A stretch of DNA of 43,283 nt from Acidimicrobiales bacterium (GTDB lineage Bacteria; Actinomycetota; Acidimicrobiia; Acidimicrobiales; SZUA-35): the NCBI GenBank assembly GCA_020629695.1, contig JAHDCV010000001.1, positions 128,785 through 172,067 on the forward strand, given 5' to 3'. Under the pieces are notes generated by a model. It had not been told where the DNA came from, searched no databases, and saw only the letters and a program-made list of their open reading frames with translations. Made by a program: the position numbers and the translations under genes. Positions 3,366 through 36,407 of this stretch are shown piece after piece (within the stretch, counting starts at the first letter, position 1; each line of letters begins with the position of its first letter).

Positions 3366-4879
3366 CCACCATCCCCCACTGGATCGACGGTGCCCGCCGG
3401 GCATCGACGTCGGGCCGAACGGCGCCGGTCACCGATCCGTCGACCGGCGCGCAGACCGCGCAGGTCGCGCTCGCCTCGGTCGCCGAGGTGGACGATGCCG
3501 TGGCCGCCGCCAAGGCGGCGTTCCCGGCATGGCGGGACACCTCGATGGCCCGCCGCACGGCGATCTTGTTCCGATATCGCGAGCTCCTCGATCAGAACCG
3601 GCTCGCTCTCGCCGAGCTGATCTCGGCCGAACACGGCAAGGTCCTCGCCGACGCACTCGGCGAGGTCGCCCGTGGCCTCGAGGTCGTCGAGTACGCCTGC
3701 GGACTGTCCGAGCACCTCAAGGGGGAGCACTCCCAGGACGTGTCGACGGGGATCGACGTGCACTCGGTACGCCAGCCCCTCGGTGTCATGGCCGGCATCA
3801 CGCCGTTCAACTTCCCCGCGATGGTGCCCATGTGGATGTATCCCGTGGCCATCGCCTGCGGGAACACCTTCGTCCTCAAGCCGTCGGAGAAGGATCCGTC
3901 GGTCTCGATGCTGGCCGCCGAGTTGTTCACCCGGGCCGGCCTGCCCGACGGTGTGCTCAACGTCGTCCATGGCGACGTCGACGCGGTGCACCGGATCCTC
4001 GACCACCCCGACGTCGCCGGCGTGAGCTTCGTCGGATCGACCCCCATCGCCCGCGCCGTCTACGAGCGGGGCACGGCCGCCGGCAAACGGGTCCAGGCCC
4101 TCGGAGGGGCGAAGAACCACATGCTCGTGCTGCCCGACGCCGACATCGACGTGGCGGCCGACTCCGCCGTGTCCGCCGGCTACGGCTCGGCCGGCGAACG
4201 TTGCATGGCGATCTCGGTGATCGTCGCGGTCGGTGACGTGGCCGACCGCCTCATCCCCGCCATCGAGCAGCGGACCGCCGACCTCGCCGTCGGACCCGGC
4301 ATTCCCGCGTCGGGCGATCCCGCCGACTCGCCCGACATGGGCCCGCTCGTCACGAAGGCCCACCGCGACCGTGTCGCGGGCTTCGTCGACCTGGGTGTGT
4401 CCGAGGGCGCCGACCTCGTCATCGACGGCCGGGGCTACACACCGGACGACCCGGCGGCCGCCGACGGCTTCTGGCTCGGACCCTGCCTGTTCGACAACGT
4501 CGCCGCCGACATGGAGATCTATCGCGAAGAGATCTTCGGACCGGTGCTGTGTGTCGTCCGGGTCGGCTCCTACGCCGAAGGTCTCGAGTTCATCAACGGC
4601 AACAACTACGGAAACGGCACTGCGATCTTCACGGGCGACGGTGCGGCCGCCCGGGATTTCCAGCGGAACGTCACGGCCGGCATGGTCGGCGTGAACGTGC
4701 CGATTCCCGTCCCGGTCGCCTTCCACAGCTTCGGCGGCTGGAAGGACTCCCTGTTCGGTTCGAGCCACATCTACGGCCCGGAGGGCATCCGCTTCAACAC
4801 CGGCTACAAGGCCATCACCAGCCGCTGGCCGAGCCGGGCCGACTCGCAGGTCTCGCTGGTGTTCCCCGGCGGCGACTGA
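3362..4879 (+). CDS. mmsA: CoA-acylating methylmalonate-semialdehyde dehydrogenase (MmsA/IolA)
   Basis: This 505-residue cytosolic aldehyde dehydrogenase converts methylmalonate or malonate semialdehyde with CoA and NAD to propionyl- or acetyl-CoA. The family-typical segment GITPFNFPAMVPMWMYP is present, followed by GNTFVLKPSEKDPS for NAD binding and the catalytic cysteine C281 in AGERCMAIS. Length fits the family (about 500). Start ATG 3362 has GGAGG six bases upstream and overlaps the lacI stop. In inositol catabolism this enzyme is IolA, the last step; it also serves valine breakdown. Linkage to an IolE-like protein and a sugar receptor favours the inositol role. A hairpin follows at 4895-4922. 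Confidence 0.93.
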   Translation: MTTIPHWIDGARRASTSGRTAPVTDPSTGAQTAQVALASVAEVDDAVAAAKAAFPAWRDTSMARRTAILFRYRELLDQNRLALAELISAEHGKVLADALGEVARGLEVVEYACGLSEHLKGEHSQDVSTGIDVHSVRQPLGVMAGITPFNFPAMVPMWMYPVAIACGNTFVLKPSEKDPSVSMLAAELFTRAGLPDGVLNVVHGDVDAVHRILDHPDVAGVSFVGSTPIARAVYERGTAAGKRVQALGGAKNHMLVLPDADIDVAADSAVSAGYGSAGERCMAISVIVAVGDVADRLIPAIEQRTADLAVGPGIPASGDPADSPDMGPLVTKAHRDRVAGFVDLGVSEGADLVIDGRGYTPDDPAAADGFWLGPCLFDNVAADMEIYREEIFGPVLCVVRVGSYAEGLEFINGNNYGNGTAIFTGDGAAARDFQRNVTAGMVGVNVPIPVPVAFHSFGGWKDSLFGSSHIYGPEGIRFNTGYKAITSRWPSRADSQVSLVFPGGD

Positions 4880-4894
4880 GGCCGGCGACCTGCG

Positions 4895-4922
4895 GATCGA
4901 CCCCGGAGACCCGGGGCCGATC
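4895..4922 (+). terminator. Hairpin after mmsA
   Basis: Twelve-base arms (4895-4906, 4911-4922) with a single mismatch surround the loop AGAC, starting 15 bases after the mmsA stop. There is no U-run. It ends 15 bases before the next gene, which has its own predicted -10 at 4926-4931, so it probably ends the lacI-mmsA transcript. Confidence 0.5.
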
Positions 4923-4937
4923 TGGCAGACTCCGGCG

Positions 4938-5630
4938 ATGGAGGCACCCGGCGAACTGATCGGCGTCGGGCGCGCCGCCGACGTGTACGACGTCGGCGGC
5001 GGCCGCGTGCTGCGGCGCTACCGGACCGAGCACGACGCCGCCCCCGAGGCCGCCGTGATGCGCGCGGCGCGGGCCGCGGGTGTTCCGGTCCCCGAGATCT
5101 TCGACGTCGACGGCCGGGATCTCGTGATGGCCCGGGTCGACGGCCGGACGATGTTGGGCGAGCTGATGCGACGTCCCTGGACGCTCCGCCGCCACGCCGC
5201 CGGTCTCGCCGAGCTCCACCGCCGGGTCGCCGCCACACCGAGATCGGCCCTCGCCCATCTCACCGGTGACGACCGGATCGCACCCGACGCCGTGCTGACC
5301 CACGGCGACCTGCATCCGGACAACGTGATCCTCACCGTGCACGGCCCGGTGATCATCGACTGGACCAACGCCCGGCCGGCCTCACCCCATGTCGACGCCG
5401 CACTCACCTGGTTGGTCCTGTCGACCTCGGATCCGGAGGGCGGCCCGGTGGTGCGCGCCTTCGCCACCGTGTTCCGTTCGGCGTTCGTCGACGCGTTCCG
5501 CACGGCCTACGGACCCGCGGAGATCGACGGTGCCGCGGGAGAAGCGCTCGTGATCAAGCTCGCCGATCCCGGCACCAGCGAGGCCGAGCGGGCGGCGATG
5601 CGTGCGGCCGTGCACCCGGCCGGACGCTGA
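4938..5630 (+). CDS. Aminoglycoside phosphotransferase-like (APH) family kinase
   Basis: A 230-residue protein-kinase-fold small-molecule kinase. A nucleotide-loop-like GVGRAADVYDVGGGRVLRRY opens the N-lobe, HGDLHPDNV (residues 122-130, catalytic D124) is the Brenner motif, and VIIDWTNA (D141) carries the metal-binding aspartate. It is shorter than classic APH enzymes (about 260-300), mostly by a compact C-lobe. The substrate is unknown; members act on sugars, choline, amino acids or antibiotics, and nothing here indicates resistance. CAGACT six bases before ATG and no Shine-Dalgarno suggest a leaderless mRNA. It ends directly against the convergent ybaK-like gene. Confidence 0.82.
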   Translation: MEAPGELIGVGRAADVYDVGGGRVLRRYRTEHDAAPEAAVMRAARAAGVPVPEIFDVDGRDLVMARVDGRTMLGELMRRPWTLRRHAAGLAELHRRVAATPRSALAHLTGDDRIAPDAVLTHGDLHPDNVILTVHGPVIIDWTNARPASPHVDAALTWLVLSTSDPEGGPVVRAFATVFRSAFVDAFRTAYGPAEIDGAAGEALVIKLADPGTSEAERAAMRAAVHPAGR

Positions 5631-6110
5631 TCAGGCCGGGGGTGTCGCCAACCCCTCGATGACTTCGCCCCCGAGGGCCGTGAGGATCTCGGGCGACGCG
5701 ATGACCTTGCGGTCACGACCGCCGCCGCCGAGGATCACCCGCTCCCGACCCATGACGGCGGCGTCGATCCACAGGGGCAGATCGTCGGGCCGCCCGAACG
5801 GCGTCACGCCGCCGATCACCATCCCGGTCATCTGTTCGGTGAGCTCACCCGGGGCGAACGAGACCCGGCGCACGCCGAGCTTCTTGCGCACGGCCCGGTT
5901 GACGTCGAGACGTCGATCGGCGAGGACCACACACATCGCCAGCACCGGTGGCTCGGCCTTTCCCATCACGACGATCGCGTTGGCCGAGTCCTCGAGGGCG
6001 TAGCCGTAGTGCTCACAGAAGTCGGCGGTGTCGGCGAGCGCCGGGTCGCACTCGACGATCTCGTAGGCCACACCGGTGGCGTCGGCGGCAGCGGTCACGG
6101 GATCGGACAT
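5631..6110 (-). CDS. YbaK/EbsC family aminoacyl-tRNA deacylase-like protein
   Basis: A 159-residue YbaK-fold protein of the group that hydrolyses mischarged tRNAs, such as Cys-tRNA(Pro). Matching signs are the N-terminal half with ANAIVVMGKAEPPVLAMCVVLADRRLDVNRAVRKKLG, where the KK pair is typical of the active region, then GMVIGGVTPFGRPDDLPLWIDAAVM, the family's GG(V/I)xPxG loop, and the terminal GGGGRDRKVIASPEIL. It covers the whole family length. The start at 6110 (MSDP) is chosen because the domain begins there and TTCACT sits six bases upstream on the coding strand; a longer in-frame extension exists but looks random. Specific tRNA substrate unknown. Confidence 0.87.
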   Translation of the reverse strand: MSDPVTAAADATGVAYEIVECDPALADTADFCEHYGYALEDSANAIVVMGKAEPPVLAMCVVLADRRLDVNRAVRKKLGVRRVSFAPGELTEQMTGMVIGGVTPFGRPDDLPLWIDAAVMGRERVILGGGGRDRKVIASPEILTALGGEVIEGLATPPA

Positions 6111-29054: not shown

Positions 29055-29134
29055 CGCCATCAAACCGATGGCGCTCAGGGGAGATCGCCCGAGGCCGACG
29101 GCCGCGGGTGGACCAAACGGAAAGGAAATTCAGC

Positions 29135-30556
29135 GTGCGCGATTCACGACTGCTGAAGCTTCTCTCGATGCTGTTTGCGTTCGGCCTTCTGGCTGCTGCG
29201 TGCTCCGGTGACGACGACTCGACCGATTCGGCCGACGAGACCACCGAAGACACCGCCGCCGAGGAAGCCGAGAGCGAAGAGGCGATGGAAGAAGAGCCTG
29301 AAGAGGCCATGGAAGAAGAAGCCATGGAAGAAGAGGCCATGGAAGAGGAGTCCTCGCTCGAGGGCACCACCGTCGTCATCACCGGCCCGGAGCGTTCCGA
29401 GGATCAGGCTGGAGCCATCCAGGCCGCCCTGGACGAGTTCGGCGCCGAGAACGGCATCGACATCACCTACACCGGCTCCGCCGACTGGGAGGCCGAGGTC
29501 AACGTGCAGGTGGACGCTGGTTCGCCCCCGGACATCTCCATCTTCCCGCAGCCCGGCAAGCTCGCCGACTTCGCTCGTGACGGCGTCCTCCTGCCGCTCC
29601 CCGAGAACGTCGCCGCCGCCACCGCCGCCAACTGGAGCGATGCGTGGACCGTCTTCGGCAACGTCGACGGCACCCAGGTGGGTATCCCGGTCAAGACCGA
29701 CCTCAAGTCCCTCGTCTGGTACAAGCCGGCCCTGTTCGCCGAGAAGGGCTACGAGGTCCCGACCACGTTCGACGCCTTCGTCGCTCTCGTCGGTGACATG
29801 ATCGCCAATGGCGACACCCCGCTCTGCGTCGGCATCGAGTCCGGCCAGGCCACCGGCTGGGCCTACACCGACTGGGTCGAGGAAATGGTGCTCCGCTTCG
29901 AGGGCGCCGACGTCTACGACCAGTGGGTCAACCACGAGATCCCCTTCAACGACGAGCGCATCGTCGCCCAGATGCAGGCCGTGCTCGACCTCTGGAACAC
30001 CGAGGGCGCCGTGTTCGCCAACGGTGGCACCATCGCCTCGACCAACTTCGGTGACAACTCCGTCCCGCTGGTTGACGAGGACTGCATGATGCACCGCCAG
30101 GCGTCGTTCTTCTCCGGCTTCTTCGACCCGGGCACCACCTTCGGTGCTGACGGCGTCGACGTCTTCTACTTCCCGTCGAACGAGGGCGCTCCCGTCCTCG
30201 GCGCCGGCACCCTGGTCGCGGCCTTCGCCGATCGTCCCGAGGTGTGGGCCGTGATGGAGTACATGAGTGGTGCGGAGTACGCCGCTCGTCGCCAGGTGGC
30301 TCAGTCCGAGCTCAACGGTGGCGGCGTGTCCGGCTTCCTGTCGGCCGTGAACGGTCTCGACCAGGGCCTCTACACCGAGCTCGAGCAGTCGATGCTCGCC
30401 GCCCTGGCCTCGGCCGACGTGGTGCGCTTCGACGCTTCCGACCTCATGCCCGCCGACGTCGGCGCCGGCACCTTCTGGACCGAAGGCACCGCTGCCGTGA
30501 ACGGTGAGAAGGACGCTCAGGCGGCCGCCGATGCCATCGAGGCATCCTGGCCGTGA
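29135..30556 (+). CDS. Sugar ABC transporter substrate-binding lipoprotein (family 1, MalE-like)
   Basis: A 473-residue extracellular solute-binding protein. The signal peptide (RLLKLLSMLFAFGLLAAAC) ends in a lipobox with the cysteine near residue 21, followed by an acidic linker with repeated AMEEE units. The mature domain shows VVITGPERSEDQ, PPDISIFPQPGKLADFARDG and GIPVKTDLKSLVWYKPALF, typical of cluster-B carbohydrate receptors. GTG 29135 has AAAGGAA seven bases upstream, the best start; GTG 29108 lies further up without one. Followed by two strong hairpins, then by the two permeases. The ligand is unknown; the linked GH13_18 enzyme suggests a glucosyl disaccharide-like compound. Confidence 0.92.
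   Translation: MRDSRLLKLLSMLFAFGLLAAACSGDDDSTDSADETTEDTAAEEAESEEAMEEEPEEAMEEEAMEEEAMEEESSLEGTTVVITGPERSEDQAGAIQAALDEFGAENGIDITYTGSADWEAEVNVQVDAGSPPDISIFPQPGKLADFARDGVLLPLPENVAAATAANWSDAWTVFGNVDGTQVGIPVKTDLKSLVWYKPALFAEKGYEVPTTFDAFVALVGDMIANGDTPLCVGIESGQATGWAYTDWVEEMVLRFEGADVYDQWVNHEIPFNDERIVAQMQAVLDLWNTEGAVFANGGTIASTNFGDNSVPLVDEDCMMHRQASFFSGFFDPGTTFGADGVDVFYFPSNEGAPVLGAGTLVAAFADRPEVWAVMEYMSGAEYAARRQVAQSELNGGGVSGFLSAVNGLDQGLYTELEQSMLAALASADVVRFDASDLMPADVGAGTFWTEGTAAVNGEKDAQAAADAIEASWP
29282..29350 (+). repeat. 15-base coding repeats encoding AMEEE
   Basis: Units at 29282-29296, 29306-29320, 29321-29335 and 29336-29350 encode Ala-Met-Glu-Glu-Glu in the linker after the lipobox. The last three are directly adjacent and nearly identical in DNA, so the number may vary between strains. 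Confidence 0.75.
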
Positions 30557-30784: not shown

Positions 30785-33643
30785 ATGGACGTCACACTCG
30801 ATCGCGTCGACACATCCGTCGACTCGACACTTCTGAACGCGGGAGCGACGAACGGAGCGATGGTCGGGCTCGTCCTCGGCCTGTTCTTCGCCGCCGGATC
30901 CCCCCTGATCGGCCTCGTCGGCGGGCTCGTGCTCGGCGCCGGTTTCGGCGCCGGCACCGTCACGCTGCTCAGCGGACAGACCGACCCGAGACTCCGCATG
31001 GTGATGGGAGCCGGACTCGGCGCCGTCGCTGGTGTCGTTTTCGGCCTCGTCGTCTCCGGCGGCCTGCTGCCCGCCCTGCTCTCGACCCCGATGATCTGGT
31101 GGACGGCATCGGTCGCCGTCGCCGGCGGGGTCCTGGCCTGGCTGCTCGACAACGATCCCGTCGTCGGCACCGCCGCCGGTGCGGCCGTCGGCTGGATGGT
31201 CGCCACGCTCGGTGAGCCCGATCTCGGCGGCGGCACCCGAGCCGAAGCCATCATGGTGTTCGCCGTGCTCGGTGCCCTCGTCGGGTTCGTGATGGCCCGA
31301 CGGCCACCGGCGATCACGACGCCGGTCTACCGACCGACGGCGTTGTTCATGGCCGGGTTGGCCGGCTTCGGCGCACTCCGCCTCATGCACACCTACGGCA
31401 CGAGCCAGAACCTCGACCAGCTGGTGACCACGATCGTCAACGTGATCCTGGCCATCGGTGCGTTCTCGGCGATGTGGGTCGGCATGAACCTGGTGTTCAA
31501 CCAGACCGGCGCCCACTGGTCGCGCTTCTCCGCCATCACCGGTGGGCTCGTCGGCTTCGTCATCACGGCGATCCTGGTCGGCAACCGGGCGATCGCCTTC
31601 CCGGGCGCCGACGAGGACGGTGTGACGCTGCTCAGCCGCTTCGCCGGCTTCGTCGAGGACCTCGTCAACGGTTGGTCCGAGACCTCCCCCGACGGATCAC
31701 CGTGGAACCGCGGCATCGTCGTCGCCATCGTGCTCGGCCTCGCCGGCTACGGCATCGGCCGGGGCCTCGACAGCTACCACGCCATCACCAAGTACCGCCC
31801 GGCGCTCGCCGCCGTCGGCGTCGTGCTCGGCGGGTTGTACGGCTACCACTACACCGGCGATCTGCCGGGGAACACGCCGGTGCTGATGTACACGCTGCCA
31901 CTGATCGGCGGCACCATCCTCGCCGCTGGTGGCTGGCTGTTGTCCACCAGGGACGACCGCCAGGGCCGACTCGTGATCGGTATCGCCACCGGCGCCCTGT
32001 TCGGCCTGTTCCTGGCCGTGTTGTCGACCGAGACCGGCCAGCCCCGGATGACGCCGCTGCCGCTCCCGGTGGCCACCGCCGTGCTGGCCGCCGCCGGCTA
32101 CGGAGTGTCGACGCTGCGTGGCCGCGACCCGATCCGAGGCGCTCTCTGGGGTGCCCTGCTCGGCTGGATCGTGGGCGCCTGGGGTGTTCCCGACATCGGC
32201 GATGCCACGCTGGTCGAGGCCATCGCCGGCTACGTCGGGCCGGGCGCCATCGCCGGAGCGCTCGCCGGATTGACCACCCTGCCCGACGTCGCCCGTCGGG
32301 CCGTCATCGACCAGAAGTCACGTGCGTGGATCTTCATGGCCCCCGCCGTGCTGTTCGTCGGCTCCGCCCTCGTGCTGCCGACGATCATCACCTTCATCCT
32401 CTCGTTGCAGAGCAACGACAAGGACGGTCGTTGGGTCGGGCTCGAGAACTACAACGAGATCATCCGTGCCCCCGGGCTCGAGACGAACCCCAACCTCGAT
32501 CTGAGTGGTGCCGGGGATCTGTTCACGAGCCGTCTGTTCTGGCTGGCGCTCATCCTGCTCGGGGTCGGCCTCGCCACGGCGATGGTCATGGGTCGGCGAA
32601 CCGGCCGAACGGTGGACGTCGACCCGCAATCGGGCGGGGTCATGCTGCTCGGGATCGTGATGTTCGGCTTCGCCGTGTTCTCGGTGCTCCGGGGCACGAT
32701 CATCAACAACCTCTGGTGGGTGTTCGCCGTGACGGCATTCGCCACCGCCTTCGGCCTGGCGGTCGCCGCCTGGGCCGACGGCATCAAGGGCGAGAAGATC
32801 GCGAAGTCGTTGATCTTCATGCCGATGGCCATCTCGGCCGTGGGTGCCTCGATCATCTGGCGCTTCATGTATTCGTCCCGCCCCGCCGGCAAGGAGCAGA
32901 ACGGCACATTGAACGCGGCCTGGATCTGGCTCGGGGAGAAGACCTCGAACCAGGAGAGCTTCGGGGTCGGGTTGTTCGACTGGCACTTCTTCGACTTCCC
33001 GGGCAAACCGCTGTTCCTCGCCGGGTTCGCCGCTCTGGCCGCCTGGCTGGTCGCGACGGGCCTCCGCTCCGCCAAGAAGAACGGGCCGAGTGCACTCGTC
33101 GCCTACCTGGTCATGGCGGCGTTCCCCGTCTGGCTCTTGGTCCGACTCCTCCTCGAGGGTCACCTCGGTGGGGTGATCGAGAACGACGCCGGTGAGTGGC
33201 TCGCCGACCCGATCCTGTTCCGCGAGACGAGCCCGTTCAACAACTTCTGGCTGATGATCGTGATGCTCTGGATCGAGACCGGGTTCGCCATGGTGATCCT
33301 CTCGGCGGCCATCAAGGCCGTGCCGACGGAGTTCATCGAGGCGGCCAAGATCGACGGCGCCGACGACTCGCAGGTCTTCTGGCGGATCGTCATCCCCCAG
33401 ATCGCTCCGACGATCGGCGTGGTGGTCACCACCACGATCGTGAAGGTGACGAAGGTGTACGACTACGTGAAGGTCATGACCGGCGGCAACTTCGACACGA
33501 ACGTGCTCGCCAACTCGATGATCGATCAGTCGTTCCAGTTCGCCAACGCCGGCACGGGCTCCGCCCTGGCGGTGCTGCTGTTCATCATGGTCCTGCCGAT
33601 CATGGTGCTGAATGTGCTCCGGATGCAGAGGGAGGCCGCCTGA
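30785..33643 (+). CDS. ABC sugar permease (MalF type) with about 505-residue N-terminal membrane extension
   Basis: A 952-residue protein, about three times the usual 300. From about residue 510 (RAWIFMAPAVLFVGSALVLP) it is a MalF-type permease with an enlarged region before the core and the EAA loop EFIEAAKIDGADDSQVFWRIVIPQIAP (E852 onward) that docks the ATPase. Residues 1-505 form many Gly/Ala-rich hydrophobic segments of unknown type, with an internal repeat near residues 124 and 448. ATG 30785 has an AGGGAG Shine-Dalgarno. No frameshift or stop separates the parts and codon use is alike, so the fusion is real at sequence level. MalG follows one base after its stop. Confidence 0.9.
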   Translation: MDVTLDRVDTSVDSTLLNAGATNGAMVGLVLGLFFAAGSPLIGLVGGLVLGAGFGAGTVTLLSGQTDPRLRMVMGAGLGAVAGVVFGLVVSGGLLPALLSTPMIWWTASVAVAGGVLAWLLDNDPVVGTAAGAAVGWMVATLGEPDLGGGTRAEAIMVFAVLGALVGFVMARRPPAITTPVYRPTALFMAGLAGFGALRLMHTYGTSQNLDQLVTTIVNVILAIGAFSAMWVGMNLVFNQTGAHWSRFSAITGGLVGFVITAILVGNRAIAFPGADEDGVTLLSRFAGFVEDLVNGWSETSPDGSPWNRGIVVAIVLGLAGYGIGRGLDSYHAITKYRPALAAVGVVLGGLYGYHYTGDLPGNTPVLMYTLPLIGGTILAAGGWLLSTRDDRQGRLVIGIATGALFGLFLAVLSTETGQPRMTPLPLPVATAVLAAAGYGVSTLRGRDPIRGALWGALLGWIVGAWGVPDIGDATLVEAIAGYVGPGAIAGALAGLTTLPDVARRAVIDQKSRAWIFMAPAVLFVGSALVLPTIITFILSLQSNDKDGRWVGLENYNEIIRAPGLETNPNLDLSGAGDLFTSRLFWLALILLGVGLATAMVMGRRTGRTVDVDPQSGGVMLLGIVMFGFAVFSVLRGTIINNLWWVFAVTAFATAFGLAVAAWADGIKGEKIAKSLIFMPMAISAVGASIIWRFMYSSRPAGKEQNGTLNAAWIWLGEKTSNQESFGVGLFDWHFFDFPGKPLFLAGFAALAAWLVATGLRSAKKNGPSALVAYLVMAAFPVWLLVRLLLEGHLGGVIENDAGEWLADPILFRETSPFNNFWLMIVMLWIETGFAMVILSAAIKAVPTEFIEAAKIDGADDSQVFWRIVIPQIAPTIGVVVTTTIVKVTKVYDYVKVMTGGNFDTNVLANSMIDQSFQFANAGTGSALAVLLFIMVLPIMVLNVLRMQREAA

Positions 33644-33644
33644 G

Positions 33645-34712
33645 ATGGCACTCGCAACGAAGTCCCCATCCCTGTCGGTCGACGCCCTGGAGGGCGGCGG
33701 TCCCGGCATCGTCAACCGGATCTACGGCGCCCTTCGCCGGGCCCCGATCTGGATCATCGTGGCCGTCTGGACCATCCCGACGCTCGGGTTGTTCGTCAAC
33801 TCGTTCCGGACCCGCGACGCCCAGCGCCGGGTCGGTTGGTGGCAGACCCTCACCGAAGGCACCACCGAGGCGACCGCCGAGGAGGGCGAGGCTGCGGCCA
33901 ACACCTTCACGGCGGGCCCGCTCACCATGGAGCAGCTCACCACGGAGAACTACGAGACCGTGCTGGCGGCGTCGACGACGACCGACCTGTTCGGTTCGCT
34001 CGTGAACTCCGCCGCCATCGCCATCCCGGCCACGATCATTCCGATCGCGATCGCGGCGTTCGCCGCCTACGGCTTCGCCTGGATCGACTTCAAGGGCCGC
34101 AAGACGCTGTTCATCGGCATGGTGGCCCTGTTGGCCGTGCCGCTCCAGGTGGCGCTGTTGCCGCTGCTCCGCAGCTACATCGGCGGCGCCCACTGGACGG
34201 TCGGCTCGATCGGCACCTTCGAACCGTTGGGTTGGATCGGGATCGAGAAGACGGTGACGGTGCTGCCCGCACTGCAGCTCAACGGCACGGCCGAGTCGGT
34301 GTGGCTCACCCACACGGGGTTCGCGATGCCGTTCGCGATCTTCCTGCTGCACAACTACATCAGTGGCCTGCCGAAGGACATCTTCGAGTCGGCCCGCATC
34401 GACGGTGCCGATCACTTCACGATCTTCTGGCGGTTGATCCTGCCGCTGTCGATCCCGGTGCTCGCCGCCTTCGCCATCTTCCAGTTCCTCTGGACCTGGA
34501 ACGACTTCCTGATCGCTCGCACGATGCTCGGCCCGAACCAGGACGTGCTGCCCACCACGGTGCGTATCGCCAACCTGTCGGGTGACTTCGGTCGGAACGA
34601 CTTCATCCTCCCGGCGGCGGCGTTCATCCAGGCCTTCATCCCGCTGGCGGTGTTCTTCAGCCTCCAGCGGTTCTTCGTGCGGGGCATCCTCGCCGGCTCC
34701 GTCAAGGGCTGA
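33645..34712 (+). CDS. ABC sugar permease (MalG type)
   Basis: A 355-residue carbohydrate permease. The first helix WIIVAVWTIPTLGLFVNSFRT is followed by a long outside loop including an acidic stretch (TEATAEEGEAAANTFTAGPLTMEQLTTENYETVL), larger than in typical MalG. The EAA loop is DIFESARIDGADHFTIFWRLILPLSIP, giving the second ATPase contact. The C-terminal FFSLQRFFVRGILAGSVKG is a family hallmark. ATG 33645 lies one base after the fused permease stop, with GAGG upstream. It must pair with the MalF half of the preceding protein and with an ATPase encoded elsewhere. Confidence 0.93.
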   Translation: MALATKSPSLSVDALEGGGPGIVNRIYGALRRAPIWIIVAVWTIPTLGLFVNSFRTRDAQRRVGWWQTLTEGTTEATAEEGEAAANTFTAGPLTMEQLTTENYETVLAASTTTDLFGSLVNSAAIAIPATIIPIAIAAFAAYGFAWIDFKGRKTLFIGMVALLAVPLQVALLPLLRSYIGGAHWTVGSIGTFEPLGWIGIEKTVTVLPALQLNGTAESVWLTHTGFAMPFAIFLLHNYISGLPKDIFESARIDGADHFTIFWRLILPLSIPVLAAFAIFQFLWTWNDFLIARTMLGPNQDVLPTTVRIANLSGDFGRNDFILPAAAFIQAFIPLAVFFSLQRFFVRGILAGSVKG

Positions 34713-34726
34713 CCCACGATCATCGA

Positions 34727-34796: not shown

Positions 34797-36407
34797 ATGT
34801 CCGGACCCGAGACCCGTCTCCAGCGGCTCACCGAGATCTACGGTGCCGATCTCGCCACCGTGGTGGCGCCGAGGCTCGAGGCGCGACTCGCCGGTGAGCC
34901 CACCACGGCCGCCCGCCGGCGTTGGTCGCACGATGACATCTGGCTGATCACCTACGCCGATCAGTTCACCGAGACCGACACCGCGCCGCTGGCGACTCTG
35001 CACGACGTGCTCGACGACGAGCTCGCCGACGTCGTCACCGGCGTGCACGTCCTCCCGTTCTGCCCGTGGAGCTCCGACGACGGCTTCGCGGTGATCGATT
35101 ACCACGAGGTCCACGAGCCGTACGGCACCTGGACCGACATCGAGCGACTGGCCGCCGACCGTCCGTTCATGGCCGATGCCGTCATCAACCACCTCTCGGC
35201 GTCGTCGCCGTGGTTCGAGGCGTTCCTCGCCGACGCCGAACCCCATCGCCGGTTCTTCCGGACCGAACACCCCGACACCGACACCTCGGCGGTCGTGCGG
35301 CCGCGCACCCACCCCCTGCTCACGGGGTTCGACACGACCGGCGGACCCCGCTGGGTCTGGACGACGTTCTCGGCGGACCAGGTCGACCTCGATTACGCCG
35401 AACCCGACGTGCTGCTGGCCGTCGTCGACGTCGTCCTCCACTACGCCCGCCGAGGTGCATCGGCGATCCGGCTCGACGCCGTGGGCTTCTGCTGGAAGGA
35501 CCCGGCGACGTCGTCGATCCACCGGCCCGAGACCCACGCGATCGTCCAGCTCCTCGCCGACTGTCTGGCCGACACCCATCCCGGCACGATCCTCATCACC
35601 GAGACGAACGTGCCCCACGAGGAGAACGTCAGCTACCTGCACCCGACGATCCCCGAAGCACAGGCGGTCTATCAGTTCCCCCTCGCTCCCCTCTCGGCCC
35701 ACGCGATCCGCACCGGCGACGTCGACGTGCTGGTCGAGTGGGCCGCGGTCATCGACCCGCTCGTCGCTCCCGGGCGCTCGTTCTTCAACTTCCTGGCCTC
35801 GCACGACGGCATCGGACTGCGACCGGCCGAAGGCCTGCTCGGCGACGACGCGATCGACGAGCTGGTGCGGGCGACCGAGGCCACCGGTGGACGGGTCAAC
35901 CACCGGACCACACCGGGCGGTGGCACGGCGCCCTACGAACTCAACGTCACCTGGTTCGATCTGATCGGCGAGGGGGTCGACACCGACACGGCGATCGCCC
36001 GCCACCTCGCCACCCACGCGCTGCTGCTCGCGCTGCCGGGCGTCGCCGGCGTCTACGTGCACGCACTCGTCGGGTCCTCCAACGACCTGGCGGGCGTCGA
36101 CGCCTCCGGCATCAACCGCCGCATCAATCGGCAGAAGTTCGATCGGAACGACCTCCGCTCGTCGCTGGTGGACGACACGACCGTCGCTTCCCGGGTGCTG
36201 GCCGGGATGCGTGCACTCGTGGGTGAACGTCGAACCCGCCCCGCCTTCCACCCCGAGGGCCGTTGCACGGTCGACCAGCCGGCACCCGGCGTCGTCCGGG
36301 TGCAGCGGCGACACGACGGGCACGACGGGACGTGCACGATCAACTTCCGGGGCACCACCGTCGAGGCGGACGGTCCACTCGGCCCGTACGAGGTGCGCTG
36401 GTCCTAG
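34797..36407 (+). CDS. GH13 subfamily 18 phosphorylase (sucrose/glucosylglycerate/glucosylglycerol phosphorylase-like)
   Basis: A 536-residue alpha-amylase-fold enzyme of the sucrose-phosphorylase group that splits an alpha-glucoside with phosphate to give glucose 1-phosphate. Landmarks: VHVLPFCPWSSDDGFAVIDYHEV, DAVINHLSASSPWF, the nucleophile D227 in AIRLDAVGF, the acid/base E269 in LITETNVPHEEN and the transition-state Asp D337 in FLASHDGIGLRP. Length matches the glucosylglycerate phosphorylase YcjM more than classical sucrose phosphorylases (about 490-500). Being cytosolic and next to sugar permeases, it likely acts on the imported compound. GGAG lies eight bases before ATG 34797. Exact substrate is unresolved. 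Confidence 0.88.
   Translation: MSGPETRLQRLTEIYGADLATVVAPRLEARLAGEPTTAARRRWSHDDIWLITYADQFTETDTAPLATLHDVLDDELADVVTGVHVLPFCPWSSDDGFAVIDYHEVHEPYGTWTDIERLAADRPFMADAVINHLSASSPWFEAFLADAEPHRRFFRTEHPDTDTSAVVRPRTHPLLTGFDTTGGPRWVWTTFSADQVDLDYAEPDVLLAVVDVVLHYARRGASAIRLDAVGFCWKDPATSSIHRPETHAIVQLLADCLADTHPGTILITETNVPHEENVSYLHPTIPEAQAVYQFPLAPLSAHAIRTGDVDVLVEWAAVIDPLVAPGRSFFNFLASHDGIGLRPAEGLLGDDAIDELVRATEATGGRVNHRTTPGGGTAPYELNVTWFDLIGEGVDTDTAIARHLATHALLLALPGVAGVYVHALVGSSNDLAGVDASGINRRINRQKFDRNDLRSSLVDDTTVASRVLAGMRALVGERRTRPAFHPEGRCTVDQPAPGVVRVQRRHDGHDGTCTINFRGTTVEADGPLGPYEVRWS

Follow-up and report, generated by a model that had tools for sequence, protein, structure and literature searches.

The window, by which we mean the whole 43,283-nucleotide stretch of DNA that was analysed, encodes a 952-residue permease that we read as the MalF/AglF subunit of an ABC importer of the alpha-glucoside type, greatly enlarged by additional membrane helices. 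Residues 502-540 and 638-951 would form the six-helix core, which would make the sugar path together with a MalG-type partner, and the EAA loop on this core would receive a MalK-type ATPase. Helices appear to have been gained at four tolerant sites: two near the N-terminus (before helix TM0, and between TM0 and core TM1) and two in loops of the core that face outward (TM1-TM2 and TM3-TM4). A glycine-rich block of five helices between TM0 and TM1 would be the largest of these gains, and a later N-terminal copy of it would have arisen in the window's genus. The parts of the permease are listed below, with the evidence for each in parentheses.

30785..33643, + strand: expanded MalF/AglF-type ABC permease, 952 residues, about 26 predicted transmembrane helices (open reading frame, BPD_transp_1, orthologue, predicted model)
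30785..31399, + strand: N-terminal extension, residues 1-205, seven predicted helices (alignments; helices of the model, of low confidence here)
30929..31303, + strand: first block copy, residues 49-173 (68.3 bits to the HMM of the second copy's family, window left out)
31406..31507, + strand: probable TM0, residues 208-241, counterpart of the lone N-terminal helix of short AglF-type permeases (alignment, position)
31517..31852, + strand: helices inserted after TM0, residues 245-356, comprising helix 245-271 and helix pair 306-356 (alignments, model)
31880..32299, + strand: second block copy, residues 366-505, common to all long relatives (alignment, genome searches)
32288..32404, + strand: core TM1, residues 502-540 (alignment to short forms, superposition on SugA)
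32486..32686, + strand: insert I1, residues 568-634, a helix pair (583-606 and 614-634) in the outward TM1-TM2 loop (gap against short forms)
32696..32872, + strand: core TM2-TM3, residues 638-696 (alignment, model)
32930..33220, + strand: insert I2, residues 716-812, a helix pair (740-766 and 768-791) in the outward TM3-TM4 loop (gap against short forms)
33236..33637, + strand: core TM4-TM6, residues 818-951 (BPD_transp_1, superposition on SugA)
33335..33418, + strand: EAA coupling loop, residues 851-878, EFIEAAKIDGADDSQVFWRIVIPQIAPT (sequence motif, alignment)

The open reading frame contains no internal stop, and its ATG is preceded by a purine-rich, ribosome-binding-like stretch. Compact proteins are the rule among type I importer permeases. 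BPD_transp_1, the sole Pfam domain in the permease, matched residues 766-941 with 50.3 bits against a cut-off of 26.4. NCBIfam models showed a sub-cut-off likeness to permeases for sugars, among them GlcT, UgpA, and MalF, and the PDB sequence matches of note (SugA, AlgM, and MalF) all fell past residue 794. The domain match and the length of the frame bear out the original prediction of a MalF-type permease about three times as long as usual. A sister species carries a 952-residue orthologue that aligns without gaps and is 80% identical. The 952-codon frame is genuine; a misassembled join is unlikely, because the gapless orthologue is found elsewhere and the junction of block and core is found in many other genomes.

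The sister contig is 75-83% identical in DNA to most of the window, and the two share just two exact runs of at least 100 bases. One is a run of 641 bases (29432-30072) within the binding-protein gene; the other, of 1262 bases (33452-34713), starts ~63 codons before the end of the permease gene and takes in the entire MalG gene. These runs may reflect recent recombination or cross-assembly of two MAGs.

The full-length AlphaFold model had a mean pLDDT of 71 and a pTM of 0.47, and was weak in residues 1-205. Its core (505-952) superposed on SugA with a Z score of 20.0 and an rmsd of 3.5 over 279 of 285 residues, with the inserts skipped. The full model superposed on MalF with Z scores of 17-19, and the N-terminal residues of MalF reached model residue 242. 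The model thus predicts a normal six-helix type I core fold. The EAA loop lies between core TM4 and TM5, and its residues E852, A853, D857, G858, A859, and P871 are invariant in 29 proteins. Alignment with relatives 326-345 residues long showed two clean gaps in the core, which correspond to I1 (about 568-634) and I2 (about 716-812). The position of I1 was taken from alignments made with MAFFT and from domain hits, as it did not emerge from a whole-core alignment with hmmalign. The position of the EAA loop implies that the loops holding I1 and I2 face outward.

Short relatives open with the single helix TM0, followed by core TM1, and the mid-size relatives L025 and L030 start at a helix that matches residues 208-241 of the window's permease. 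From position and alignment, 208-241 is probably the equivalent of TM0, although for a single hydrophobic helix the score is not strong. The additional helices outside the core lie in residues 1-205, before TM0, and in residues 245-495, between TM0 and TM1. With the two outward core loops, this makes four sites, and the number of predicted membrane helices rises from ~7 to ~26. With the N-terminus taken as inside, lysine and arginine make up 13% of the inner loops and 5% of the outer loops; the topology is a prediction of this kind throughout. The original prediction had described a fusion to a 505-residue membrane domain. That description holds in part: TM0 lies inside the added half, and two transmembrane hairpins lie within loops of the core. 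We reject the plain joining of an independent domain to the N-terminus, because TM0 is positioned within the supposed added half and because no convincing block was found on its own.

The four repeat motifs reported initially do start at residues 124, 145, 448, and 469, and they are the most conserved part of a block of ~125 residues with five helices. A profile HMM for block 366-505, for which 18 homologues were used and the window and its sister excluded, matched residues 49-173 of the window's permease with 68.3 bits (E 2.9e-20 at Z=1000). As controls, we used 400 shuffles, 200 preserving the hydrophobic pattern, and the reversed sequence; the best shuffle scored 12.6 bits and the reversed sequence -2.4. 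The two copies in the window are 37% identical over 113 residues. The difference between 68.3 bits and the best shuffle confirms the internal repeat as a true duplicated membrane unit. I1 and I2 showed no similarity to the block profile. The helix pair 306-356 may be a copy of the block's first two helices; in relatives it scored 12-15 bits, near the best shuffle.

The block itself is older than its duplication, and the description of the duplication as ancient was not borne out. Among the genomes searched, a double block was found in the window and L024, both of the window's genus, and, apparently as a separate occurrence, in one genome of another family (L091). In a phylogeny of the block, the two L091 copies grouped with L116 (support 100/95), apart from the copies in the window, which points to an independent duplication at a similar place, before TM0. 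The two copies from the window did not group together, and the age and route of their duplication are therefore unsure. In its present form, the extension 1-205 was seen only in the window's genus.

Searches with the block returned matches in 47 of the 397 genomes sampled from the order, in 37 of 296 from the class, and in 16 of 396 from the phylum; these samples overlap, and the class and phylum counts contain a few weak short-frame hits. No convincing standalone copy was found in these genome searches. Frames of 16-24 bits without a permease core in L105-L107 are probably chance matches. At every inspected locus where it scored at least 36 bits, the block immediately preceded core TM1 of a permease of this subfamily. 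The survey of the fusion proposed at the outset thus gave no convincing sign of an independent module, the block being joined to this core at all of these loci.

When region 206-545 was modelled alone (47 sequences), the pLDDT was 83, and mostly above 85 in the block. This model had no confident match in the PDB (best Foldseek E 0.3, best Z score 5.9). The predicted fold of the block region is best described as one without a confident match, which does not make it a new one. Residues 1-504 had no PDB sequence match of note, and neither Pfam nor NCBIfam returned anything above cut-off in the N-terminal part. A known module in the N-terminal half had been named as the finding that would overturn the original prediction; these searches gave nothing above cut-off and no confident fold. 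Matches of the N-terminal part to ARH3 (E 0.02 or worse) are probably compositional. The window's block did not exceed the gathering score of the glycine-zipper domains PF13488, PF05433, and PF13441 (Gly-zipper_Omp reached 13.4 bits against a cut-off of 25), and glycine-zipper matches in other block members were scattered and weak.

Permeases of the subfamily have lengths of 326-345, 447, ~630-790, and 820-1004 residues, and across this series the inserts occur at the same four sites. The forms of 326-345 residues are found at L045-L049. The permease of 447 residues (L042) has TM0, about one helix pair, and I1, without I2. Those of L043 and L044 are without block, I1, and I2; their N-termini are longer, with uncertain starts. 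All long relatives that were inspected retain the block, which spans several families of the phylum. In a tree calculated from core columns only, the 45 block carriers formed one branch (support 100/100) with one change of state, which suggests a single origin of the block. I1 is longer in the clade of giant forms. G009 and G032 each encode both a long and a shorter form. At L104 (complement, 863-residue open reading frame), ~218 mostly hydrophobic residues lie between the core TM1 and TM2 segments; this site of growth differs from the window's.

The permease is the second gene in a series of binding protein, expanded permease, MalG-type permease, and GH13 enzyme. The other three genes are the following.

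29108..30556, + strand: substrate-binding lipoprotein of the same operon (SBP_bac_1, 61.6 bits; order kept in relatives)
33645..34712, + strand: MalG/AglG-type partner permease, likely start 33645, open reading frame from 33612 (BPD_transp_1, 53.1 bits; similarity to GlcU, UgpE, and MalG; GGAGG before 33645)
34797..36407, + strand: GH13 enzyme, sucrose-phosphorylase-like (Alpha-amylase family; TIGR03852, 168 bits against a cut-off of 334)

The order of binding protein, permease, and MalG is retained in relatives. It is also that of a Sinorhizobium meliloti plasmid, where it is found with an ordinary permease of 336 residues, an alpha-glucosidase, and UgpC. Binding proteins encoded beside long permeases are 50-69% identical to that of the window (92% in the sister species), against 37-43% for those beside short ones. 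The operon partners thus follow permease size, and the long forms therefore mark a distinct importer line. Behind its lipid-anchor cysteine, the binding lipoprotein has a strongly acidic linker of ~48 residues with repeated (E)AMEEE units (29210-29353).

No ATPase gene was found in the window's operon. In L033, L042, L094, and L109, a gene for a MalK-type ATPase adjoins the permease-MalG cluster. Elsewhere in the window's genome there is a lone MalK-type ATPase (G000:C30; L111, ~4777-5967), 54-75% identical to the ATPases at ten loci in relatives, and we infer that it probably serves the window's importer. The homology and the GH13 gene in the operon suggest an alpha-glucoside-type substrate. 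Among the loci compared, the GH13 gene adjoins the permease, as judged by similarity, only in the window's genus; the true substrate of the enzyme could reveal the importer's sugar.

Between the window and the sister species, dN/dS was 0.33 for residues 1-205, 0.16 for block 366-500, 0.33 for I1, and 0.50 for I2, compared to 0.06-0.13 in the core segments that differ. Mean pairwise identity was 28-39% in the added parts and 66-67% in the core. All parts of the permease thus look to be under purifying selection, less strict in the added parts. Block and extension are rich in glycine (17%), which also predominates at their conserved positions, with R395, R445, and W461 among the exceptions. Outside the block, such exceptions include N235, G266-N267 (after TM0b), and R787.

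We consider it probable that the importer works and that the extra helices aid it as a peripheral shell, packed through glycines. Import would probably follow the usual route, and the extra helices would most likely stabilise or position the importer, with no second transport route. The packing of such a shell on the core goes beyond what the model can support, given its weakness in residues 1-205 and its pTM of 0.47. A scaffold role for the added half, one of those raised originally, is plausible. Positions N235, G266-N267, R395, and R787 could have a more specific role.

Of lower probability is a neutral ratchet, in which functionless helix pairs pile up at tolerant loops and are later hard to lose. 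Membrane inserts with an even number of helices would leave the topology intact, and packing of the helices against one another would hinder their loss. Copy number and insertion sites do vary by lineage (the duplicated block of L091 and of the window's genus, the ~218 residues at L104, and the longer I1 of the giant clade), and I1 and I2 are poorly conserved. However, dN/dS is below 1 in all added parts, and the presence of the block in all long relatives inspected, from several families, is not what a ratchet favours. The purifying selection is compatible with it, because packed helices would be under selection too.

Somewhat less probable again is that the long forms are an undescribed clade of importers with an obligatory extra membrane module in the transport mechanism, for example one that holds the binding protein or tunes the core from the side. 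Were this true, type I importers could be extended to well over 20 helices by intragenic helix insertion and duplication.

We regard it as improbable that the extra helices are an active module, be it a second channel, a dock for the binding protein before translocation, or a membrane sensor that gates the importer. Conserved loop residues, among them G266-N267 and, on the outward loop of I2, R787 and G795-G796, would fit such a module, as would the co-segregation of binding proteins and MalG partners with long permeases; however, ordinary operon inheritance also predicts this co-segregation, the conserved block positions are mainly glycines, and there is no confident match to a channel or receptor family or fold. 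The channel or pre-translocation receptor of the original prediction found no positive evidence. That misassembly fused two genes can largely be dismissed: the assembly is in 121 contigs, and the operon shares two exact runs with the sister species, one over the end of the permease gene, but the first ~890 permease codons lie outside these runs, the gapless orthologue shows dN/dS well below 1, and dozens of genomes have the same junction of block and core.

Among the closest known systems is the Sinorhizobium-type cluster (L060), which we take to be the alpha-glucoside importer AglEFG(A)K with permease AglF. AglF shares with the window's permease the operon order with a glucosidase-type enzyme, ~52% identity over the aligned core pieces, and a helix before core TM1. 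In contrast, it is 336 residues long and lacks the block as well as I1 and I2, and its ATPase gene lies inside the cluster. At 952 residues and with four insertion sites, the window's permease departs from the usual insert-free AglF of ~330 residues. SugA of the mycobacterial LpqY-SugABC system (PDB 7cag and others) has the same six-helix core, as the superposition indicated; its chains have ~305 residues and no inserted membrane helices.

We found no paper in the open-licence literature that describes such an expansion of a permease. Compared with MalG, E. coli MalF has two further helices at its N-terminus and a long insert that is hydrophilic (PMC3654945). It resembles the window's permease in that helices precede a MalG-like core and an insert occupies the corresponding TM1-TM2 loop (PMC3654945), whereas the permease of the window has ~20 extra helices, and its inserts are embedded in the membrane. 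A 2013 analysis found that ABC uptake permeases range from four or five up to twenty TMSs, through internal duplication and indels (PMC3654945). The 20-TMS permeases, in a series from 5 to 10 to 20, also grew through internal duplication (PMC3654945); however, there the permease unit itself was doubled, whereas here helices without detected kinship to the core surround one unit.

Built on a single core, the relatives appear to form a graded natural series, with no block, a helix pair, one block, or two blocks. This series allows growth by helix gain, the function of the inserts, and the tolerance of transporters for inserts to be tested directly. The type of transporter is already known, and its helix expansion would be an extension of the MalF and 20-TMS theme: with ~26 predicted TMs, the permease would lie beyond the range of four or five to twenty given in the 2013 survey (PMC3654945).
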